Virus record (IMG/VR): IMGVR_UViG_3300021168_000084 | Coordinates: 1-23,711 of that record | Direction: 5' to 3' (one strand) | DNA: 23,711 nucleotides | Source of the DNA: a virus | Part shown: in pieces, positions 4,284-18,672 of the stretch | How the letters are laid out: the number at the start of each line of letters is the position of its first letter | Position numbering within the stretch: position 1 is the first letter of the stretch | Made by a program: the position numbers and the translations under genes | The notes under the pieces: model-generated | The model's database searches: none | What the model was told of the DNA's origin: nothing | The model's input: the letters and a program-made list of their open reading frames with translations, nothing else

Positions 4284-4409
4284 TCACACAGCACAATAGA
4301 CTTGTAACGCCTTAACCTTTTGCTCGTCCGCTACAAATTGCGCGCTCAACACCTTGGCCATTTTGTCTATCGCGGAAATAAGCTCTTCAAACTCTTCACG
4401 CGTCATCAT
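4284..4409 (-). CDS. Small helical protein, 41 aa
   Basis: ORF whose ATGATGA start overlaps the stop of the DNA polymerase gene. The product (MMTREEFEELISAIDKMAKV, then LSAQFVADEQKVKALQVYCAV) should be a single long amphipathic helix. No family recognised. Support comes from the overlap-type start and the gene-like composition; GGAGAGTGTAA precedes the ATG. It may be a translationally coupled accessory protein, but nothing in the sequence shows a function. Confidence 0.55.
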   Translation of the reverse strand: MMTREEFEELISAIDKMAKVLSAQFVADEQKVKALQVYCAV

Positions 4410-6316
4410 TTACACTCTCCATAGCTCGGGCCAGGACTCACCTCAGCTTTAAGTGGGATATCCCGGCCCCACCATGGTGCCCTAGTTAACTCTGCAAGAA
4501 TTGTCTGTGCAGCAGCCGTAGCGTCCTCAGCCTTAACCAAGTAAACTAGCTCATCGTGGGCTTGGTGGGAGAAGCGATACCCCAAGTTATTTAGCCGCAG
4601 CGCTGCGTCCATCAAGATCGTTCGGCCTAATAACTCTATTATATTCTGCAATAGGCGGCCAGGGAATAGCTTGATCGGCTTACCTCCGTAGTTGTAGCCC
4701 CATTCTGTCCCTATCACCTCTTCACCATCATAAACGGGCATCCTTCGAGGGTTACCATATCGCATCATCAAGCCATTCGGCCCCTCAACCTCCCCGTGCC
4801 GTATAGTGACCGGCCCCAGCTTCACAGACGAACAATTGTCAGCCGAGCGAGAAGTCCCCCATACTGTCTCTATGGCCCGCCCCAGCATTCGCCACAACCT
4901 TGGTATCGCAGCATATTTCGCTCGATAAGCATCAACGGTTTTTTGTGCCAGTTCCGGTGTCCACTCGATACCTAACCCACTAAGATCGATACCAAATCTC
5001 CGCGCGTCAGTAAGGACCATGTTATAAAACCGCCTAACCCCGCACTGGTACTGCAGTCCCAACACCCCTGTCTTAGCAATGAACCCATGCCCCGGATGCT
5101 TATTCTTTCTATCGATTTCAAATCCAAACAGGAGTGACCCGAACGAATTGTAAGGATCACCCTGCTTGAATTCTTCCAGCAACGTTTTCTCGCCGGCCAG
5201 CCACGCGGTCAGCCGCGCCTCGATTTGAGCCAAGTCACCGGATATAACCACATGCCCCGGAGGCGCTATTAGAGCCCTTCTGATAGCGTTTGTCTGGCCC
5301 CCCCTCCCTGCCGGAAGGTTCTGGAAATTTAAGCCCCACTCCCCACTAAGGCGGTGTGTATGGGCCCCCCCATACCGGAGCGGCACGGGCATCTTTATCA
5401 TAAGGCGAGATATGTTTATTAGCTTCTCGGTGCGGGTTTCTTCGATGGTAGACTTGAACCCGAGCCGTGCCGAAGCTAGCGCTTGAACTACAGGATCAGG
5501 GGAATTCCGCAGGTCCTCCATAAAACGATCGGTTTTAGCCAAAGCAGGGATCGTACCTTCCCCGGTCGGGCTAGGCTTGTACTCGATCGGAACTTGTCTG
5601 GCCTCAAGAGCTTTCACAAATTTATCGGACGACATGAGGTCGGCTTTAGAGAGGCCGCAGGCTCGAAGAAGGTTAGCCTTAGAGGTTTTTAGGGTGTTAA
5701 GGTGTTCTTTCAAAGCAAATTGATTTACGTGGAAAGTAGGCTCGACCGCGCAACGAATGACAAGATCCATAACCTTGAGTTCTTCAGAGGGTAATTCTTG
5801 GACAAGCATCTTGAAAATATCACGAGAGCGCTCGTTGTCACGGTTCGAATAGGCACAATAATCGTCCCACAGGCCGGCAGCCTTGATGGCATCGGCGCGC
5901 ATACCCTTAACTTTGGCAATCGTACTCTTGTCGTGGGGCAGGCCGAGCACCTCGCATACCTTCTCTAAGGTCAACCTAGGCAATATATGCCCCCGCGTCG
6001 CTCGTGCTAGGTTCATGCTGTCTAGCATCAAAGCCGGCACGAAACCGAAGCGCCACGCTAGCACTGAATTATCAAATAGGGCGTTGTAAGTGACAGTTGC
6101 AGTGGTTTTAGGGTCGAATTGAGACAGAAAATTGCTCAAAGCAGAAACCCCCTCCACAATAGTGGAGGGGTCGTTGTTGATAGCCACGGCACAGATGATA
6201 GTCTCGAACCTGTTGTCCAAGATGTACTCTGGCACAGTCATCTTGCGAAGACTGTATTCTTTGTCGTAATAAGATTCGACATCTAGGAACAGGAAATTTT
6301 CAATCACACTGGCCAT
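4406..6316 (-). CDS. Family A DNA polymerase with 3'-5' exonuclease domain
   Basis: Replicative phage polymerase of 636 residues. Exonuclease motifs: Exo I FLFLDVESYYD with Asp12 and Glu14, Exo II TYNALFDNSVL, and Exo III YSNRD. Polymerase motifs: A, SGDLAQIEARLTAW; B, FIAKTGVLGLQYQCG; C, HQAHDELVYL. The position equivalent to E. coli Phe762 is Leu. The Arg usually found four residues before the motif B Lys appears to be Gly, with His one residue earlier. The frame stays open upstream to an ATG at 6454, but I prefer ATG 6316: the protein then begins directly at the exonuclease domain as relatives do, and its start overlaps the stop of a membrane microprotein ORF that carries the strong ribosome site. 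Confidence 0.93.
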   Translation of the reverse strand: MASVIENFLFLDVESYYDKEYSLRKMTVPEYILDNRFETIICAVAINNDPSTIVEGVSALSNFLSQFDPKTTATVTYNALFDNSVLAWRFGFVPALMLDSMNLARATRGHILPRLTLEKVCEVLGLPHDKSTIAKVKGMRADAIKAAGLWDDYCAYSNRDNERSRDIFKMLVQELPSEELKVMDLVIRCAVEPTFHVNQFALKEHLNTLKTSKANLLRACGLSKADLMSSDKFVKALEARQVPIEYKPSPTGEGTIPALAKTDRFMEDLRNSPDPVVQALASARLGFKSTIEETRTEKLINISRLMIKMPVPLRYGGAHTHRLSGEWGLNFQNLPAGRGGQTNAIRRALIAPPGHVVISGDLAQIEARLTAWLAGEKTLLEEFKQGDPYNSFGSLLFGFEIDRKNKHPGHGFIAKTGVLGLQYQCGVRRFYNMVLTDARRFGIDLSGLGIEWTPELAQKTVDAYRAKYAAIPRLWRMLGRAIETVWGTSRSADNCSSVKLGPVTIRHGEVEGPNGLMMRYGNPRRMPVYDGEEVIGTEWGYNYGGKPIKLFPGRLLQNIIELLGRTILMDAALRLNNLGYRFSHQAHDELVYLVKAEDATAAAQTILAELTRAPWWGRDIPLKAEVSPGPSYGECK

Positions 6317-6468
6317 CCCATCAGTTGAGCGAAAGCAAAGAACAGCAGGGGGATTGCGATTGCCGAGGGCACCAATTTGAATACAAAGTGGGATGGCCAG
6401 TTTTCCGTCTTCATCACAATCGCAAACGTCAACATATAAATTGACGCCATCCATTGCAAAGTCAACAT
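6304..6468 (-). CDS. Putative two-helix membrane microprotein, 54 aa
   Basis: ORF preceded by AGGAGGT at ideal distance, the best ribosome site in this neighbourhood. The product has two hydrophobic segments, QWMASIYMLTFAIVM near residues 5-19 and VPSAIAIPLLFFAFAQLMG near residues 33-51, joined by a short polar loop (KTENWPSH). Its stop codon lies 11 bases inside the preferred polymerase start, so it could couple translation of the polymerase. The alternative is that this stretch encodes a polymerase N-terminal extension in another frame. Membrane topology and function are predictions only. Confidence 0.5.
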   Translation of the reverse strand: MLTLQWMASIYMLTFAIVMKTENWPSHFVFKLVPSAIAIPLLFFAFAQLMGWPV

Positions 6469-6480
6469 AGATGTACCTCC

Positions 6481-6642
6481 TTAGTGCAGTGTCAAGCTTT
6501 CAGTGGTAAACAAACCTCGCTCGAAAGCGAGGTCTATCAGGCGTGTCGCCCATAATTTGTTGGCGATTACAAATTGTTCGGTGTTAGGGTTATAGGTTAT
6601 ATACCCCTCAGCATCCAGCTGTTCAAGGATTTCATCCATCAT
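6481..6642 (-). CDS. Hypothetical small protein, 53 aa
   Basis: Begins MMDEILEQLDAEGYITYNPN, with its ATG overlapping the stop of the upstream Cys-rich gene (ATGA), and ends just before the ribosome site for the membrane microprotein. The sequence has a helix, a short strand (EGYITYNPNTEQFVIANK) and two further helices, which could be a small winged-helix-like fold. A longer in-frame version to 6783 is antisense-like shadow of the neighbouring gene, so the short start is chosen. No family recognised. Confidence 0.65.
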   Translation of the reverse strand: MMDEILEQLDAEGYITYNPNTEQFVIANKLWATRLIDLAFERGLFTTESLTLH

Positions 6643-7367
6643 GACGGACGCCCTTCCGCTATTGCGCTTGCCTTCTTCTTCCGCACCCCGTGCGCAGGGA
6701 AGCCTACGATTACCTTCCTTTCTTGCCGCTGGCACAATTGGCACGTGGCACAGGACACGTCGTCCCGATACGTAGCAGGGCACACTACAACCTGACGCCC
6801 CCTAGGGGTAGTGATATATGTGCGTCCGTGTACCTTCTCGGGTAACACCACGACAACAGGCCCAGCCTTGGCCGCGGACAACTTGTCAGCCTCTTTCAGG
6901 TTATCTGCCGATAGGTTAATTGTGAAGCCCCGCTTGTTGGCGCGCTTGATTGCCGCCTTATTGGCCTTAGTCAACGGCTTGTGGGTATAGGTAAACCCCC
7001 GCTTACCCTTGTTGGCCTCTACAAGATCGTCAAGAGCAACCTCGTCTATCTTGTCCCCAAGGCCCGGCAGATCGCCAGCTTGGTTGTGCCGCCATAACGT
7101 GCCGTCCTCCAATTGGGATATGGCAGTGGTAAATTGCGACCATGTAAGGGTTTGCATTGTAGCCTTGGTATTGCGTTTTACCAATGCGCCCGGTTCTGCA
7201 GCGGACAGGATCGACCAGAGTAAACCAAGGGGGCCAATATCAGCATAGCAGCCGTTGTCCTTGAGCGGACATGCATCGGGACAAGTGCTTCTACTGGTAG
7301 TTGAGACAGGTATTGGACCCGTCTTTCCATTACCGGATTTAGGGGTGAGATAAACAGCATATGACAT
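6639..7367 (-). CDS. DUF7227-like Cys-rich phage protein
   Basis: 242-residue protein starting MSYAVYLTPKSGNGKTGPIP. N-terminal cysteines occur in STCPDACPLKDNGCYAD and a C-terminal group in VSCATCQLCQ. Between them are conserved-looking blocks WRHNQAGDLPG, GFTYTHKPLT and GFTINLSADNL. This matches my memory of a phage family now called DUF7227, similar in layout to the mycobacteriophage Gp88 group; function is not established. The two cysteine groups could bind a metal or iron-sulfur cluster. ATG 7367 follows the AGAGGGACACC start context shared by this gene set; upstream in-frame sequence to 7529 overlaps the preceding leader element and gene end and is probably not translated here. Confidence 0.8.
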   Translation of the reverse strand: MSYAVYLTPKSGNGKTGPIPVSTTSRSTCPDACPLKDNGCYADIGPLGLLWSILSAAEPGALVKRNTKATMQTLTWSQFTTAISQLEDGTLWRHNQAGDLPGLGDKIDEVALDDLVEANKGKRGFTYTHKPLTKANKAAIKRANKRGFTINLSADNLKEADKLSAAKAGPVVVVLPEKVHGRTYITTPRGRQVVVCPATYRDDVSCATCQLCQRQERKVIVGFPAHGVRKKKASAIAEGRPS

Positions 7368-7392
7368 GGTGTGGTGTCCCTCTAAGGTGAGA

Positions 7393-7427
7393 GCGGGCCA
7401 TCGGGCCCGCCCTTGCTCGCTGGCGGC
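7393..7427 (-). promoter_or_regulatory. Leader element copy a (conserved core plus hairpin)
   Basis: Read on the minus strand, core GCCAGCGAGCAAGG (7411-7424) is followed at once by a hairpin with stem GCGGGCC/GGCCCGC and a four-base loop (7393-7410). The start codon of the DUF7227-like gene lies about 26 bases further on. Five more copies of the core precede other genes on both strands. The role (phage promoter, 5' mRNA structure or protein-binding site) is inference. Confidence 0.6.
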
Positions 7428-7440
7428 GTCGCGATTCCCC

Positions 7441-8286
7441 CTACCCCTCATACGCTTCCGCTTCTTCACGTGTGATGAAAAAGTGGATGCCTTGCGTACA
7501 TTCGCGGCGGAAATCCGGATCAAATCCATCCGGCCGGGTTATTTCCCCTACCACATATAGCGTTTCCTCACAGTATAAACCGAACGCCTCCGTTCCGCTT
7601 GAAAGCCATAGTGTTTTAACCCATTCCGCGCGGCATTTACGCCCGGTTGAATTAACGCGGCGTGCTTCGCTGGGTATCTCCAGTTTAGCAAGTATGCCCT
7701 TCCTAAGTCGTTTCCATCCAATGATTGTGCCCTCTGGCAAGATAGAAAGACTAGGAAGTATAGCATCTGTAAGATTGGTATGGCTCAGCTCAACCCCGGT
7801 CAATTTGGCGTTGGTCAGGTCGGCACCGCGAAAGTCTGCGCTAGTCAGAACGGCGGAGATCAGAATGGCGTTCCTCAGATCGGCATGGGCGAGGTCAGCG
7901 TGGGTCAAGTCAGCATGGATCAGGATGGTGTAGCGCAGGTGGGCGCGGCTCAAGTCGGCATGACCCAGATTAGCGCTGTTCAACTTGGCACCGAACAGGT
8001 GGGCACCAGTCAGACTGGCACCGCTCAGGTTAGCGTAGCTCAGGTCAGCGTTGGTCAAGTCGGCACGGATCAGATTAGCGCCGCCCAGATTGGCCCCGCG
8101 CAGATCAGCGTTTCTGAGATCGGCACTGCTCAGATTAACGCCGATCAGATTAGCGCCGCTCAGATTAGCGCCGCTCAGATTGGCCCCGCTCAGGTTGGCG
8201 CCGGTCAGGTCGACGCGGCTCAGATTGGGACGTAAGAAATCACGGGTGCCGACGGCGTAGGCTGCTAAAATTTCATCGCGTGTCAT
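7441..8286 (-). CDS. Pentapeptide-repeat protein with C-terminal DUF5758-like domain
   Basis: 281 residues. Residues from about 18 to 177 form some 32 consecutive A(D/N)LxX-type pentapeptides (TGANL, SGANL, SSADL, RNADL and so on), expected to fold as a right-handed quadrilateral beta helix of roughly eight coils. The remaining 90 residues (WKRLRKGILAKLEIP, ARRVNSTGRKCRAEWVKTL, CTQGIHFFITREEAEAY) match the domain often fused behind phage pentapeptide repeats, DUF5758 as I recall. Some pentapeptide proteins mimic DNA and bind gyrase, but nothing here proves that role. ATG follows AGGACACCACACC. The near-identical repeat codons create long open frames on the opposite strand that are not genes. 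Confidence 0.9.
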   Translation of the reverse strand: MTRDEILAAYAVGTRDFLRPNLSRVDLTGANLSGANLSGANLSGANLIGVNLSSADLRNADLRGANLGGANLIRADLTNADLSYANLSGASLTGAHLFGAKLNSANLGHADLSRAHLRYTILIHADLTHADLAHADLRNAILISAVLTSADFRGADLTNAKLTGVELSHTNLTDAILPSLSILPEGTIIGWKRLRKGILAKLEIPSEARRVNSTGRKCRAEWVKTLWLSSGTEAFGLYCEETLYVVGEITRPDGFDPDFRRECTQGIHFFITREEAEAYEG

Positions 8287-12099: not shown

Positions 12100-12131
12100 A
12101 CGGGGCGGTGTCCCCGTTGTTCGCTGGCGGC
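12100..12131 (-). promoter_or_regulatory. Leader element copy b
   Basis: On the minus strand the core GCCAGCGAACAACGG (12114-12128) runs into a hairpin with stem ACGGGG/CCCCGT and six-base loop (12100-12117). The ATG at 12070 follows. The core differs by one base near its end from the other copies, and the hairpin sequence is unrelated to that of copy a, which suggests the structure rather than its sequence is kept. Confidence 0.55.
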
Positions 12132-12177: not shown

Positions 12178-13248
12178 TTAGCCAACCAGTGTGGGCCGGA
12201 AAGATTGCTTGAGGATAGCGGTTACGTCACCATCGCTAGCCGTCTTGGCAGCAACGGCACGCAGCAGCTCGCCATCACAGATCTCATCAAGATATGTAAC
12301 CGCCTTAGCCTTAAGCGCTGCACCGCTGCCAAACTGAGCGGACACAAATTGCTTTTCCACGTTATTGCTTCCCCGATCATGGTCAACATAACGCGTCACA
12401 GCGTTGAGTGCGGCCCATGCCGTCCCTATGTGCGTGTTGTTTTCCTCCCGCACGGTCTGAGTGTAAGCTTGAGACAGTTCGTCAAACTGGTTCAGCTTGC
12501 GGGTGGACACGTCATCCCGTCCTGCTTCGAACGGAATATCGAGAACATGCCGGAACAACTTATTAATTTGCTCCTTCTCCAGATGCCTCGTTGCCATCTC
12601 CTCGCCCATCGCCTTATATGCTGCGAAGCCACTGATAACCTTCGCTAATTCCTTGCCAACGCGGTTAGCGTCAAACTTGCTGCGGTGTGACGTAGTGATC
12701 CTGCTTGCTCCCCCATCGGCAAGGCCAGCCTGGAGCGTATTATTGCATACGATCTTGACCATCGTCGCAAAATTATGGGTGGCCATTGTGCCGTCAAAAC
12801 TAGTCGTCATGGCGAGGTATGCGTCGTGCTTGGCCCCTGCAACGGTCATCCCCCCGTTGTACTTAGCGGTCGCGAATATGCGCTCACCCTGCAAGAGCGC
12901 AGCGACTGATGACATCTGGAAATCAGGGTTAACCGAGATGTACTGCCGGAACCACTCACGCAATTCGCTCGGCTGAACCGGCTTGTACTGGTCAGACATG
13001 GTCCGGTTCGACAGGACATGATGTGTGTCATGCCGCACGATCGCGTGTTGATTTTCTAACCGTATCACCGTACCATCAGCAAGGTGGGCATAAGCCGGTA
13101 CTTTAAGCGCCTCGAAATCCAAACCTCCCTTACTCCACCAAGTTTCGATGGTGTCGAGAGGCTGCATGATGTGGCCAAGTCCGTGCCACGCGGGTTTGTC
13201 GAGCGCTGCATTGATACGGCCGTTAGTCTGTTGGATAAGATGTGCCAT
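12178..13248 (-). CDS. DUF932 family phage/plasmid-like protein
   Basis: 356-residue protein beginning MAHLIQQTNGRINAALDKPA and WHGLGHIMQPLDTIETWW, the hallmark start of DUF932 (TIGR03299, phage/plasmid-like protein). Other family blocks are RNRTMSDQYKPVQPSE-like sequence (SNRTMSDQYKPVQPSELREW), MTTSFDGTMATHNFATMVKI and VCNNTL, plus a C-terminal helical part with DHDRGSNNVEKQF. Length is close to that of the family. The function is not established; it is common in phage and plasmid early regions. ATG 13248 has GAGGACATCACC before it, whereas the upstream in-frame extension runs through leader element copy c. Confidence 0.9.
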   Translation of the reverse strand: MAHLIQQTNGRINAALDKPAWHGLGHIMQPLDTIETWWSKGGLDFEALKVPAYAHLADGTVIRLENQHAIVRHDTHHVLSNRTMSDQYKPVQPSELREWFRQYISVNPDFQMSSVAALLQGERIFATAKYNGGMTVAGAKHDAYLAMTTSFDGTMATHNFATMVKIVCNNTLQAGLADGGASRITTSHRSKFDANRVGKELAKVISGFAAYKAMGEEMATRHLEKEQINKLFRHVLDIPFEAGRDDVSTRKLNQFDELSQAYTQTVREENNTHIGTAWAALNAVTRYVDHDRGSNNVEKQFVSAQFGSGAALKAKAVTYLDEICDGELLRAVAAKTASDGDVTAILKQSFRPTLVG

Positions 13249-13282
13249 GGTGATGTCCTCGTTTGGTGCAGAGTTGATGCGG

Positions 13283-13321
13283 AGCGGACGCGGTGGCCCG
13301 GCCTTGTTCGCTGGCGGCGGA
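13283..13321 (-). promoter_or_regulatory. Leader element copy c
   Basis: Contains the core GCCAGCGAACAAGG (13302-13315, minus strand) and one GGACGCGGT unit (13286-13294, plus strand). The whole 39-base stretch is identical to copy d at 14009-14047. It lies about 35 bases before the DUF932 start codon. No simple hairpin follows, only a GGCCGGGCC interrupted palindrome. Confidence 0.55.
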
Positions 13322-13346
13322 TCAGGGTTTAGCATGTCTCTTCGTT

Positions 13347-13538
13347 TCAGGGCTGGAACTTTATCATAGCATCGTCAATCAAGCGGTTACACTCGTCCTC
13401 TCCTACCATTTTGTATAGGTGCAGCATGATATAGTCGGAGCGTCCAAGGGTCGGATGCACGCACGCACCCCACCCGTCCGTTGGCCCGTGAATAGTTTCG
13501 ACGTATGCTTGTGCCAGTTGTTGTGCAGTCATTGCCAT
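13347..13538 (-). CDS. Hypothetical protein, 63 aa
   Basis: Begins MAMTAQQLAQAYVETIHGPT and has a helical C-terminal part (YIMLHLYKMVGEDECNRLID). ATG 13538 lies four bases after the stop of the previous gene and has GGAG seven bases upstream. A longer in-frame start at 13571 would overlap that gene without a ribosome site. No family recognised. Confidence 0.6.
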   Translation of the reverse strand: MAMTAQQLAQAYVETIHGPTDGWGACVHPTLGRSDYIMLHLYKMVGEDECNRLIDDAMIKFQP

Positions 13539-13542
13539 GGTG

Positions 13543-13752
13543 TTACTCCACGTTGTCACGAAGCCAATCATCGGCAGCGCCGTAGTAGCCTAGGCTCGCC
13601 ATGATCCTTGCGGGCTCACGCCAGAACTCGGGCAAGCTCTCGACGAATGGTGCGGCTTCCTCTTGCGAGACATACCCATACCCTGAGTGCTTGTTACTCC
13701 AGTCAAGCATGGCACGAACGGCATTGGCGAATTCCTCGTTTAAGTAGGCCAT
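13543..13752 (-). CDS. Hypothetical protein, 69 aa
   Basis: Starts MAYLNEEFANAVRAMLDWSN and continues SQEEAAPFVESLPEFWREPA and IMASLGYYGAADDWLRDNVE. Acidic and helical; the ribosome site is AAAGGACAAGACTA. It forms a pair with the downstream 63-residue gene. No family recognised. Confidence 0.6.
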   Translation of the reverse strand: MAYLNEEFANAVRAMLDWSNKHSGYGYVSQEEAAPFVESLPEFWREPARIMASLGYYGAADDWLRDNVE

Positions 13753-13777
13753 TAGTCTTGTCCTTTCAGTGGTGGGG

Positions 13778-13984
13778 TTATCGGAACAGCCTTTCCGCTA
13801 CGCTCAGGCTTATGCAAGGTATGTGCCAGTTCCCGTCACTAAGGCCGATAGCCCGCAAGGCTTCGATCAGTGCGGTAGGGGTTCGAGGCAGTGACATGGC
13901 ATGAGCCACAAAGATCGGCTCTCCTGCGCCGTAGGCATATAAATCTCCAAGGCCGCCGAACCCAAGATACTTAAATTCCTTCAT
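13778..13984 (-). CDS. Hypothetical protein, 68 aa, first leftward gene
   Basis: Starts MKEFKYLGFGGLGDLYAYGA and includes EPIFVAHAMSLPRTPTALIE. It is the promoter-proximal gene of the whole leftward block: upstream lie leader element copy d and the gene-free divergent region. The ATG has GAGGACACCAAC in front. An in-frame upstream extension to 14080 encodes only repeat sequence and is not credible. No family recognised. Confidence 0.6.
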   Translation of the reverse strand: MKEFKYLGFGGLGDLYAYGAGEPIFVAHAMSLPRTPTALIEALRAIGLSDGNWHIPCISLSVAERLFR

Positions 13985-14008
13985 GTTGGTGTCCTCATTT
14001 GGGGCCGC

Positions 14009-14047
14009 AGCGGACGCGGTGGCCCGGCCTTGTTCGCTGGCGGCGGA
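14009..14047 (-). promoter_or_regulatory. Leader element copy d
   Basis: Core GCCAGCGAACAAGG at 14028-14041 on the minus strand. It is part of a 39-base block identical to copy c, including a GGACGCGGT unit at 14012-14020. It merges on its right with the iteron-like array and stands about 45 bases ahead of the first leftward start codon. Confidence 0.55.
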
Positions 14048-14276
14048 CGCGGTTATAGCTAAAGTTGGACGCGGTCGCATCTAGGGTTGTAGGGTTGTAG
14101 GGTGCACAACTTCGTAAACCGGCAAAATTTATATGTCTAGGGTTGTAATATTGTAGGATGCACCAAGGCAAAGGACGCGGTTATAGCTAAAGTTGGACGC
14201 GGTCAGGACGCGGTTTAGCACAGGACGCGGTTTAGCACAGGACGCGGTCAGGACGCGGTTTAGCACAGGACGCGGT
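14045..14276 (+). repeat. Iteron-like array of GGACGCGGT
   Basis: Nine same-orientation copies begin at 14045, 14067, 14173, 14195, 14206, 14223, 14240, 14251 and 14268. Spacings are 22, 11 and 17 bases, set by three spacers: TATAGCTAAAGTT, CA and TTAGCACA. A 32-base block covering two units is exactly repeated at 14045-14076 and 14173-14204. TCTAGGGTTGTA sequences occur in the longer gap. Additional single copies lie in leader elements c and d and in both arms of the inverted duplication. Such direct repeats are typical of initiator-protein binding sites in origins. Confidence 0.75.
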
Positions 14277-14399
14277 CGGGATTGGGGTGTCCGCAGGGGG
14301 AGGGGAGGGCTAAGTTGTTGATTTTATTAGATTTCAATTGCCACGTGTATGGCTAATGGCTTACAAACGGGACAAAAATGAGAGCCCGACTTTGTGTAA

Positions 14400-14671
14400 G
14401 GGTTTCAGGGTGTTAGGTCAAAATGGCTTAAAACCAGCGATTTCGGCGATAGAATATATAGAGAATTACAAAAACCGAGGACCGCGTCTTATTAAGAAGT
14501 ATAAAATATTTATACTTCTATCTATTTTTTGCAAATATTTTAATAAAATCAATAACTTACATTTCCTCCTCCCCCTGCAGGACTCGGTGGACGCGGTTTT
14601 TTGTAATTCACCCCTAGTCTTATCTTCAAAATCGCTGGTTTTTAGCCATTTCACCCTAACACCCTGAAACC
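14400..14671. repeat. Long imperfect inverted duplication
   Basis: The left arm (14400-14488) and the reverse complement of the right arm (about 14581-14671) align over some 88 bases, with exact blocks GGTTTCAGGGTGTTAGG, AAATGGCT, AAAACCAGCGATTT and GAATTACAAAAA. Both arms, read outward from the centre, begin with GACGCGGT, the iteron unit, and run toward the left and right gene blocks respectively. About 92 AT-rich bases separate them. Open frames across this region are shadows of the duplication. Confidence 0.75.
14495..14519. repeat. AT-rich palindrome at the centre
   Basis: Perfect 11-base arms AGAAGTATAAA and TTTATACTTCT separated by ATA, between the arms of the inverted duplication. 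The surrounding 60 bases are strongly AT-rich, which would favour strand opening. It could be a melting element of an origin, an operator, or a bidirectional terminator-like structure. Confidence 0.6.
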
Positions 14672-14795
14672 ATTAGATATTATTGGGATACCACTACTTA
14701 CCCGACAGCCATTCAAGTCTCACACTTATAGGTTGTTAGGGTTTCAATCCGTTCTAGGGGCCTCTTACCTGCGCAGCCCCAAGCCTACAGCGGCT

Positions 14796-14827
14796 GCCAG
14801 CGAGCAAGGGTGACCCGGTCGAACCGG
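14796..14827 (+). promoter_or_regulatory. Leader element copy e
   Basis: Core GCCAGCGAGCAAGG at 14796-14809 followed by hairpin CCGGT/ACCGG with a CGA loop (14815-14827), then GAGGACACCATACC and the ATG at 14853. Same order of parts as the minus-strand copies, now on the plus strand, which shows that the element is tied to gene direction. Confidence 0.6.
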
Positions 14828-14852
14828 CCGGCGCAACCGAGGACACCATACC

Positions 14853-15137
14853 ATGTCGAACACTCTTACCCTGAAGCCCCAGACTACCGCTCTGTCGAAT
14901 GATCAACTCTTGGCCATGCTTATGGCAGAGCGGGAAAAGAGCGCGGTTCTGCAAGCCAAGCTGAACCAGCCTCGCAAGGTTACATTCAAGGTCGGGGAAA
15001 AGGGGGCGCTATCGATGTACGGTCTGGGGCGGTTCCCTGTCACCCTGTACCGCTCGCAATGGCAGACGCTGCTGGCCAACTCCAAGGCGATAGAGGAAGC
15101 CCTTACCCTGCCAGGGTTAAAGGACAAGGGCGAGTAG
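14853..15137 (+). CDS. Conserved phage hypothetical protein, 94 aa
   Basis: First rightward gene. The N-terminal half is a coiled-coil-like helix (SNDQLLAMLMAEREKSAVLQ). The second half, KVGEKGALSMYGLGRFPVTL followed by YRSQWQTLLA, is a signature I recall from many small phage proteins of unknown function (K.SEKGA.SVYGLGRFPVTLY..QW..LL). A DNA-associated role is possible from its place next to the candidate origin, but unproven. The stop codon overlaps the start of leader element copy f. Confidence 0.78.
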   Translation: MSNTLTLKPQTTALSNDQLLAMLMAEREKSAVLQAKLNQPRKVTFKVGEKGALSMYGLGRFPVTLYRSQWQTLLANSKAIEEALTLPGLKDKGE

Positions 15138-15138
15138 G

Positions 15139-15172
15139 GCCAGCGAACAAGGGTGGGCCAACTGGCCCACCC
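15139..15172 (+). promoter_or_regulatory. Leader element copy f
   Basis: Core GCCAGCGAACAAGG at 15139-15152, whose final GG begins a perfect nine-base stem GGGTGGGCC/GGCCCACCC with loop AACT (15151-15172). It lies between the 94-residue gene and a 29-residue ORF. There is no U-tract, so this is not a standard terminator. Confidence 0.6.
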
Positions 15173-15196
15173 TAACCCCTGAAAGGGCCCCACATC

Positions 15197-15286
15197 ATGA
15201 CCATCATCGAAACCGTAGAGTTCCCCGACTTCGAAATCCCCGAAGCCTTAGCGAAGGCGCTTGAAGAGCGGCTAAGCCAACGGTAA
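15197..15286 (+). CDS. Putative 29-aa acidic microprotein
   Basis: Short ORF coding MTIIETVEFPDFEIPEALAK and AL EERLSQR. Its first codons and upstream sequence resemble those of the next gene (CTGAAAGG ... ATGACCAT ... GAAACCG), pointing to duplication of a leader plus N-terminus. The acidic amphipathic helix and the ribosome-site-like GAAAGGG give modest support; it may instead be a remnant. Confidence 0.45.
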   Translation: MTIIETVEFPDFEIPEALAKALEERLSQR

Positions 15287-15312
15287 CCCCACACTGAAAG
15301 GACACCCACAAC

Positions 15313-15507
15313 ATGACCATTACTGAAACCGCCGCCTATGCCTCTCTGGAAACGGATGACCTTGTCACACTGTTGGAAATCGCCGAAGACGTCTTCACTG
15401 ACGTCCACACCTTGGATCGTGATGAGGCACATGAGTTCTATGGCGAGGCAATGCCAGAGCTACGGGGCCTCCTACTGAAACTCCGAAGCATAGACGCTCT
15501 CCCCTGA
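15313..15507 (+). CDS. Small acidic protein, 64 aa
   Basis: Starts MTITETAAYASLETDDLVTL and continues EIAEDVFTDVHTLDRDEAHE, strongly acidic and helical. AAAGGACACCCACAAC precedes ATG. It is the last gene before the intrinsic terminator at 15533. No family recognised; small acidic phage proteins sometimes bind host enzymes, but nothing specific is seen here. Confidence 0.65.
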   Translation: MTITETAAYASLETDDLVTLLEIAEDVFTDVHTLDRDEAHEFYGEAMPELRGLLLKLRSIDALP

Positions 15508-15783: not shown

Positions 15784-16002
15784 ATGTCCTACGGCGCCCG
15801 TGCAGTCGGTTTGAGCTTTAACCCGTCCAACGATAACAACGTAGATAAGATCAAGGCGCTCTATGCCGAGATAATCAACTTCTGCGATATCGCTCGCTGC
15901 AGTACAACCGATAGTGAGACTAGGCGGCTTTACAGTGTTGCGATCACCGAAGCGCAGACTGCCCAGATGTGGGCTGTGAAGGCAATCACTTGGAAGGCGT
16001 GA
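15784..16002 (+). CDS. Acb2/Tad1-hairpin-like protein, candidate anti-defence sponge
   Basis: 72 residues, starting MSYGARAVGLSFNPSNDNNV, with helix KIKALYAEIINFC and then RRLYSVAITEAQTAQMWAVK followed by AITWKA. The C-terminal pattern (S-x-AIT-x-A-x-x-AQMWAVKA) is what I recall for the Acb2/Tad1 hairpin domain family. Acb2 binds cyclic oligonucleotides to block CBASS, and Tad1 binds the Thoeris signal. This short protein matches the helical hairpin, so a signal-molecule sponge is plausible, but binding is unproven and many family members are untested. AAGGAAAAAACG precedes the ATG, and it sits first in the lysis-region transcript. Confidence 0.65.
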   Translation: MSYGARAVGLSFNPSNDNNVDKIKALYAEIINFCDIARCSTTDSETRRLYSVAITEAQTAQMWAVKAITWKA

Positions 16003-17875: not shown

Positions 17876-18112
17876 ATGATACAATGGGGATGGGTTGATA
17901 CGGGTTGGTTGGTGGTAATTTTTGTGATCGGCGGGTTGGCGTATTACTTCTATACGCATTACTCGGCGATGCTCAAGACGACGGGGTCGCAGCTCGGTGC
18001 CGATATCAAGACGGCGGCTCAGACGGTCGAGAAGTCGAACGTGAGTACTGTAATCCCAAACACTTCAGCTGCAGTGAAAGAAGTTGTAGCTGACGTGAAA
18101 AAGGATCTTTAA
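17876..18112 (+). CDS. Single-pass membrane protein, 78 aa (lysis-associated?)
   Basis: Starts MIQWGWVDTGWLVVIFVIGG with one N-terminal transmembrane helix to about residue 24, then a cytoplasmic or periplasmic amphipathic region rich in Ala, Thr and Lys (KTAAQTVEKSNVSTVIPNTS, then VKEVVADVKKDL). Position after the endolysin makes a holin-like or spanin-like role possible, but no known motif confirms it. ATG 17876 is chosen because GGGGGA lies six bases upstream; ATG 17870 would be too close. Stop and next start overlap (TAATG). Confidence 0.65.
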   Translation: MIQWGWVDTGWLVVIFVIGGLAYYFYTHYSAMLKTTGSQLGADIKTAAQTVEKSNVSTVIPNTSAAVKEVVADVKKDL

Positions 18113-18672
18113 TGTTCGAGGTGACGGGTCTTCCGGGTGTAGGATTAATTTCGCTTGAGAGTGCGGTAGTACGGGCGGCATTGGAGGGGGTACCTATCGC
18201 TGCTCTCAAGCGGATTTTTCGACCGGGTGACAGTGTGGACATTCGGGATATCCTGGCAGCTGCTAAGGCGTCCGGGGTGATTCTTGACCTGCCCAGTGAA
18301 GACTGGCCGCCGTTCCTGCCTGTTGATAAGAGGGGGCCGATGGTTCCCAGGCGGACTGTGGCGATCGACGACGGGGAGCTTGTTTTTCAGCTGGTTAAGC
18401 TGTTCAAGACGACGCGGTTGGAGAGTAAGATTCTTCTGACGTTCATGCGTAGGGGGCATGTTAATCGGGCGCAGTTACACGATATCGTTGAAAGTAATCG
18501 GGGGAACCCGGACGAGGCGACGGATGAGAAGATAATTGACGTTATCATCTGCAAGCTGCGTAAGAAATTAACATTGAAGGAGATAAAGCTTACAACTGTA
18601 CACTCTATCGGATATGAGATGGGGGAGGCGGATAGAAAAAAGTGCTGGGAATACCTTAATGTCCCTGAGTAG
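18112..18672 (+). CDS. Winged-helix (OmpR/PhoB-like C-terminal) regulator-like protein
   Basis: 186 residues. The last 80 contain ESKILLTFMRRGHVNRAQLH and KIIDVIICKLRKKLTLKEIK followed by LTTVHSIGYEM, the recognition helix and wing of a PhoB/OmpR-type DNA-binding domain (V-x-x-LRKKL ... T-x-x-x-GYxM). The N-terminal 80 residues (LPGVGLISLESAVVRAALEG and so on) do not look like a receiver domain and hold no phosphoacceptor that I can see. It may control late or structural genes. The ATG overlaps the preceding stop. Confidence 0.75.
   Translation: MFEVTGLPGVGLISLESAVVRAALEGVPIAALKRIFRPGDSVDIRDILAAAKASGVILDLPSEDWPPFLPVDKRGPMVPRRTVAIDDGELVFQLVKLFKTTRLESKILLTFMRRGHVNRAQLHDIVESNRGNPDEATDEKIIDVIICKLRKKLTLKEIKLTTVHSIGYEMGEADRKKCWEYLNVPE

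Follow-up and report, generated by a model that had tools for sequence, protein, structure and literature searches.

A word, GGACGCGGT, is repeated in an array beside a large inverted repeat with an AT-rich centre in IMGVR_UViG_3300021168_000084, a viral DNA stretch of 23,711 nucleotides (positions 1 to 23,711 of that IMG/VR record, all of it analysed and here called the window) which is contained at 100% identity in a 44.8-kb phage contig. We read the region holding these elements, 14012-14704, as the replication origin of the phage, with a probability of about 0.6. Directly seen are the array, its neighbouring palindrome with an AT-rich centre, comparable elements in relatives and the likeness of the phage's primase-helicase to SaPIbov1 Rep and Cch; our inference from these is of a helicase binding the unit, a centre that melts and replication beginning in the region.

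Twelve exact copies of GGACGCGGT occur in the window, exclusively on the plus strand, against a mean of 0.23 and a maximum of 2 in 100 dinucleotide shuffles of the whole window. By exact word count ten of them form a cluster in one orientation at 14012-14276, with unit starts at 14012, 14045, 14067, 14173, 14195, 14206, 14223, 14240, 14251 and 14268. For 14045-14276 the initial annotation had claimed nine direct copies at 22-, 17- and 11-base spacings, and the exact search agrees, the successive spacings from 14045 to 14268 being 22, 106, 22, 11, 17, 17, 11 and 17; a spacing of 33, from 14012 to 14045, also occurs. The 32-base exact duplication of two units noted at the same time is likewise real, 14045-14076 being identical to 14173-14204 (both plus strand; repeat family D4). 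Between these copies is a short array with an 8-bp period, TAGGGTTG TAGGGTTG TAGGGTGC (14082-14106, plus strand), and 14080-14107 has a degenerate second copy (86%) at 14136-14163 (plus strand; repeat family D6). Outside the cluster, one exact GGACGCGGT (13286-13294, plus strand) is in the duplicated leader of a DUF932 gene: a 54-base stretch is present twice, at 13280-13333 and 14006-14059, with 89% identity, and carries the copies at 13286 and 14012. Another is beyond the AT-rich centre, where a one-mismatch unit, GGACTCGGT, abuts an exact GGACGCGGT starting at 14589 (the pair spanning 14580-14597, plus strand), and a one-mismatch search found a unit in opposite orientation, AGACGCGGT, within the left arm of the inverted repeat (14481-14489, minus strand). 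Exact search of the 44.8-kb contig gave no further GGACGCGGT outside this region. No open reading frame (ORF) of at least 100 amino acids was found to span the cluster, and the unit spacings are not all multiples of 3. A listed 100-amino-acid ORF, 13778-14080, overlaps the left end of the cluster; to judge from the letters, its true start is likely the ATG at 13984, behind GAGGACACC.

The AT-rich palindromic core that the annotation had placed next to the array corresponds to an imperfect inverted repeat at 14397-14675, centred at about 14536, which has the top inverted-repeat score of the whole contig. Its centre, 14490-14560, is 14% GC, contains an 11+11 perfect palindrome (14495-14519) and is the candidate melting site. 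Boxes with an 8-bp step, AGGGTTTC AGGGTGTT AGGTCAAA ATGG, stand in the left arm (14399-14428, plus strand) and are mirrored in the right arm (14653-14671, minus strand); folded as single-strand DNA, 14280-14720 scores z -8.7 versus shuffles. In the scheme we envisage, GGACGCGGT would serve as iteron for the primase-helicase that the phage itself encodes (a putative AEP primase, a DUF927 helicase and a C-terminal domain) and that would be loaded on the units to either side of the AT-rich palindrome centre; 14490-14560 would melt, two helicase rings would depart in opposite directions and the primers would be extended by the family A polymerase. Our guess is that the 8-bp-step GGT-type boxes might be sites of a second conserved protein, perhaps a winged-helix protein considered below, tying early transcription to replication.

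Comparison with relatives carries much of the argument. Polymerase and terminase alignments took in 80 viral loci each, with 55 of the 80 terminase loci having sufficient sequence for comparing the terL neighbourhood, and 32 contigs were read, whole or in part. Position was assessed in the 23 contigs that have both terL and the polymerase gene (pol), those over 55 kb being handled as circular. The terL-pol interval occupies on average some 30% of the genome, yet the top inverted repeat falls in it in 19 of the 23 (7.0 expected; simulated p 5e-6 or below), the exceptions being G016, G021, G025 and G030, and of the 14 contigs with a non-coding short-repeat cluster above the cut, 13 have their top one there (4.2 expected; simulated p again 5e-6 or below), the exception being G033. 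The relatives behind these counts are not independent, G014 and G015 for instance sharing 92% of the helicase part, and the counts concern the interval only: in G008 and G023, for example, the top inverted repeat falls within ORFs. The recurring units are each phage's own: GCGAATAA in G002, ATGTTAGA in G011, AATGTTCG in G012, ATGGTGGG in G019, CGTAACTA in G028, GCATAGCA in G024 and TCGTAACA in KPP25. Their steps are mostly 8-12 bp, and in 14 of 15 hand-picked contigs they flank the AT-richest 60 bp of the cluster span on both sides. Two oppositely oriented sets are present in G002, G003, G011, G012, G028 and G030, and not in the window phage. Absence of the array from close relatives, which the initial annotation had thought would count against an origin, thus holds for the word (0-3 copies of GGACGCGGT in the 31 other contigs, overlapping pieces being counted twice) but is untrue of the type of element. 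A distant-mode DNA search of 13950-14900 against phage and plasmid collections gave no match, and Rhizobium phage RHph_TM3_14A (L040, W01) has a long AT-rich gap with no clear unit array.

Some arrays met along the way deserve mention for their own sake. KPP25 (AB910393) has TCGTAACA clusters at 26394-26825 (8 copies) and 58257-58542 (5 copies), about half a genome apart and with identical first spacings of 31, 46 and 8. Upstream of the DNA polymerase gene of other phages there are long G/T-rich stretches with many GGCGGTC-like words (L062 400-760, L112 1900-2450, L121 1-540), and L093 has nine AACGAGTCA, mostly 36 bases apart, at 1257-1590, outside ORFs of at least 100 amino acids. Twenty-five viral-contig stretches with three GGACGCGGT in a row were left unused; except for the phage's own contig, L030, none was a relative of the window (blastn 1e-5).

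What the relatives share beyond position is a step. In 24 regions, chosen for an inverted repeat, a motif cluster or an annotated gap, the pooled count of exact 5-mers recurring at lag 8 comes to 113, versus 15.6 (standard deviation 5.1) in shuffles (z 19), with lags 9-12, 16 and 24 less raised (z 5 to 8). Every one of the 24 has at least one such repeat, where shuffles average 9.6 regions and reach at most 16, and at lag 8 the region is within the top 2% of its own contig's windows in 16 of 24. The commonest shared pairs are GGT-like (ACGG-ACGG in 11 of 24, GGTG-GGTG in 10 of 24), those in the window being exemplified by TAGGGTTG at 14082 and AGGGTTTC-AGGGTGTT at 14399. Since 8-bp-step boxes are common to the relatives, the GGACGCGGT array is best seen as an additional element of this phage alone, next to a common one.

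Which protein would bind the units? The 1043-amino-acid primase-helicase, encoded outside the window in the same operon as the polymerase (IMGVR_UViG_3300050821_003054:40533-43664), has a DUF927 domain (E 5.3e-14), and a profile of six of its relatives matches Cch of the staphylococcal cassette chromosome mec (SCCmec; 5dgk, E 3.6e-16) and SaPIbov1 Rep (8tch, E 2.8e-13). Foldseek with a poor model of the protein returned Cch, SaPIbov1 Rep, a PrimPol and RepB', the C-terminal domain not being resolved. The rival candidate is a 186-amino-acid protein (18112-18672, plus strand) encoded at the end of the rightward operon and matched in 20 of 20 contigs examined; it has an N-terminal part that is helix-turn-helix-like and a C-terminal half with an OmpR/PhoB-type winged helix (model predicted local distance difference test, pLDDT, 88). 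Its helix 141-154, which from the OmpR/PhoB family we take to be the recognition helix, is conserved more than any other stretch of the protein (mean pairwise identity among 19 proteins 0.68, versus 0.45 for the whole domain), and G021 and G025 have 88% of it in common yet have the units AATGATCC and ATTCGCCA. In the primase-helicase it is the C-terminal part that varies (mean pairwise identity 0.28 versus 0.36 for the helicase part). A variable C-terminal part on the one hand, and on the other a recognition helix conserved despite changing units, indirectly favour the primase-helicase as the probable iteron binder and would leave the shared boxes to the winged-helix protein. The 94-amino-acid product of the first rightward gene, put forward in the initial annotation for gel-shift work, makes a poor candidate, a homologue being found at E 1e-4 in no more than 4 contigs of 32.

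The choice between an initiator-bound origin and a multi-operator control region had been left standing by that annotation, and here the comparison leans towards the former. An operator array, through which a phage regulator such as the winged-helix protein governs divergent early promoters, is a doubtful but serious alternative. The array is, as had been said, between opposite gene blocks, with the genes on both sides directed away from it, and the phage does encode a regulator of OmpR/PhoB fold that is widespread in the group. Proteins of this type bind direct repeats about 11 bp apart, and spacings of 11, 22 and 33 are present; those of 17 and 106 do not fit, however, nor do the relatives' prevailing steps. 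Neither does the wholesale change of units under a recognition helix that is the best-conserved stretch of the putative regulator, nor the failure of an exact search to find GGACGCGGT at other promoters of the contig, nor the yield of 13200-15400, namely two weak sigma-70-like sites, no more than in shuffles. An origin is favoured because relatives tend to carry an inverted repeat and a short-repeat cluster at a corresponding genome position, built from units peculiar to each phage, and because the DUF927 primase-helicase resembles iteron-binding initiators.

Local repeat expansion, neutral or selfish, in non-coding DNA without conserved function is unlikely: the duplicated 32 bases, like the steps of 17 and 11 bases, do resemble recent slippage or duplication, and GGACGCGGT is private to this phage, but clusters with other units recur together with an inverted repeat in the relatives' same interval, and the 8-bp period is common to them. 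A site for partition or packaging, recognised by a segregation or terminase protein, is very improbable. Other phages and plasmids do have direct-repeat arrays at sites of this kind, and the terminase genes are 5-6 kb off, but a Pfam scan of 18 distinct window proteins (a subset of the ORFs) gave no partition gene, and the region comes before terL in some relatives and after it in others. Two further candidates were rejected. For a CsrA-type sponge there are GGA words on the plus strand, but a rightward promoter upstream of the array was not found, and CtrA sites (TTAA-N7-TTAA) came to one, in a single region among those inspected, with zero in the rest.

Several observations weigh against an origin. 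The region is some 15 kb from the primase-helicase gene (contig 25.0-25.6 kb versus 40.5-43.7 kb), and a divergent early promoter region would occupy the same place and look much alike. The array is lopsided: ten units stand to the left of the AT-rich centre, against one exact and one near unit to its right. Among the relatives, 8 of the 32 contigs (G005, G008, G009, G010, G018, G022, G023 and G033) gave no region that could be fixed and are not among the 24 used for the 8-bp step, and 9 of the 23 tested for position lack a non-coding cluster above the cut. When contigs were scanned without selection, the strongest lag-8 window was inside the terL-pol interval in only 14 of 23 (7.0 expected, p 0.002; lags 7, 10, 11, 13 and 14 gave p 0.89, 0.40, 0.25, 0.13 and 0.06) and no farther than 1 kb from the region in only 9 of 16. 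The primase-helicase is poorly modelled (mean pLDDT 58). To these must be added part of the GC-skew record, a check that the initial annotation had proposed and that came out mixed: the cumulative minimum of the 44.8-kb contig is 1.2 kb from the region, and among 16 other contigs it is within 5% of genome length of theirs in 7 and within 10% in 10, but the regions of G030 and KPP25 are close to the maximum. For terL, third-position skew is -0.10 in the 13 cases of a gene directed towards the region and -0.03 in the 5 of a gene directed away; the difference is weak, and takes no account of relatedness. GC skew does not decide the matter; it follows gene direction too.

As to setting, the first leftward gene, with its start as chosen in this analysis, encodes 68 amino acids (13778-13984, minus strand), and the first rightward gene, that of the 94-amino-acid protein, is at 14853-15137 (plus strand). 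The leftward operon encodes the family A DNA polymerase (4406-6454, minus strand), a PD-(D/E)XK exonuclease, an SNF2-type helicase, the DUF932 protein (12178-13335, minus strand) and a DUF7227 protein (6639-7529, minus strand). On the right, a 72-amino-acid protein (15784-16002, plus strand) has an Acb2/Tad1 hairpin domain (Pfam PF24729, E 4.5e-10), and by that domain is likely a sponge directed against Thoeris or against CBASS (cyclic oligonucleotide-based antiphage signalling system). The leader element GCCAGCGARCAAGG precedes several genes, on either strand, and usually has a GC-rich hairpin after it; it is exact at 14796 and 15139 (plus strand) and at 14028, 13302 and 7411 (minus strand), and has one mismatch at 12115 (minus strand). 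Words like TAGGGTTT are dispersed over the phage contig, for example at 851, 10488, 14737, 15520 and 15746, mostly on the window's plus strand. A terminase scan of cellular genomes, made with the host in mind, gave 9 distant loci at 25-36% identity.

Whether the case extends to a family of tailed phages with island-type iteron origins far from the initiator gene, marked by a large inverted repeat and a shared 8-bp step and with the iteron word swapped wholesale between relatives, is a speculative matter, and we rate it as less likely than not. Were it so, origin identity would evolve in the manner of an incompatibility type, and could stop co-infecting phages or satellites from using each other's replication; satellites would be linked to tailed phages through the same kind of origin and a Rep-like helicase; there would be ready natural initiator-iteron pairs for studying change of origin specificity; and a replication start would be available for a phage group for which, in the portions of the literature covered by the search, none was found described.

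Several known systems bear comparison. The origin of the Vibrio cholerae phage-inducible chromosomal island-like element (PLE), as described in PMC7145576, likewise has iterons along with inverted-repeat features, in non-coding DNA of an element related to phages; its initiator, however, is RepA_N, and none turned up here, though no search was aimed at it. The alpha protein of bacteriophage P4 is, according to PMC4234260, a phage-type multifunctional primase-helicase binding origin repeats, but its primase is of TOPRIM type. That paper also describes initiators of primase-helicase type, as in pRN1, that work at a large stem-loop without sequence conservation, and proposes the like for phage BIP-1. 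A primase-helicase together with a large stem-loop kept in structure rather than sequence is seen here too (19 of 23 contigs, and the fold of 14280-14720); the difference is that pRN1 has no iterons and that its stem-loop measures some 100 nt and lies downstream of the gene for the initiator. Initiators of the pRN1 type unite an AEP primase, an SF3-type helicase and a C-terminal winged helix in one protein; for the phage protein, the Foldseek matches to PrimPol/RepB' and to Cch/Rep come from a low-confidence model. With SCCmec the likeness is that of the phage helicase to Cch, which has DUF927 and is related to SaPIbov1 Rep, while Cch2, of another helicase family, requires short AAGTG iterons (PMC7581432); the putative origin there has three iterons only and adjoins the helicase gene. 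Closest are the origins of phage-inducible chromosomal islands (PICIs), those of SaPIbov1, a Staphylococcus aureus pathogenicity island (SaPI), and of E. coli PICIs, which according to PMC6092414 and PMC7581432 are served by a DUF927 initiator helicase of SaPIbov1 Rep kind, with SaPI Rep recognising origin iterons via its C-terminal domain (PMC7581432). According to PMC6092414, an AT-rich region with a set of iterons on either side is invariably present in island origins, an arrangement shared by no other known bacterial replicon. The present case differs in concerning tailed phages with their own polymerase, in its large inverted repeat with an 8-bp step in the arms and lopsided array, and in not being immediately 3' of the initiator gene as the known island origin is of rep. 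It has nonetheless multiple short repeats of iteron type, in the GGACGCGGT copies, and a candidate initiator helicase related to SaPI Rep, and it is because its anatomy joins such island-origin features with the stem-loop features of primase-helicase systems that we read it as an origin.
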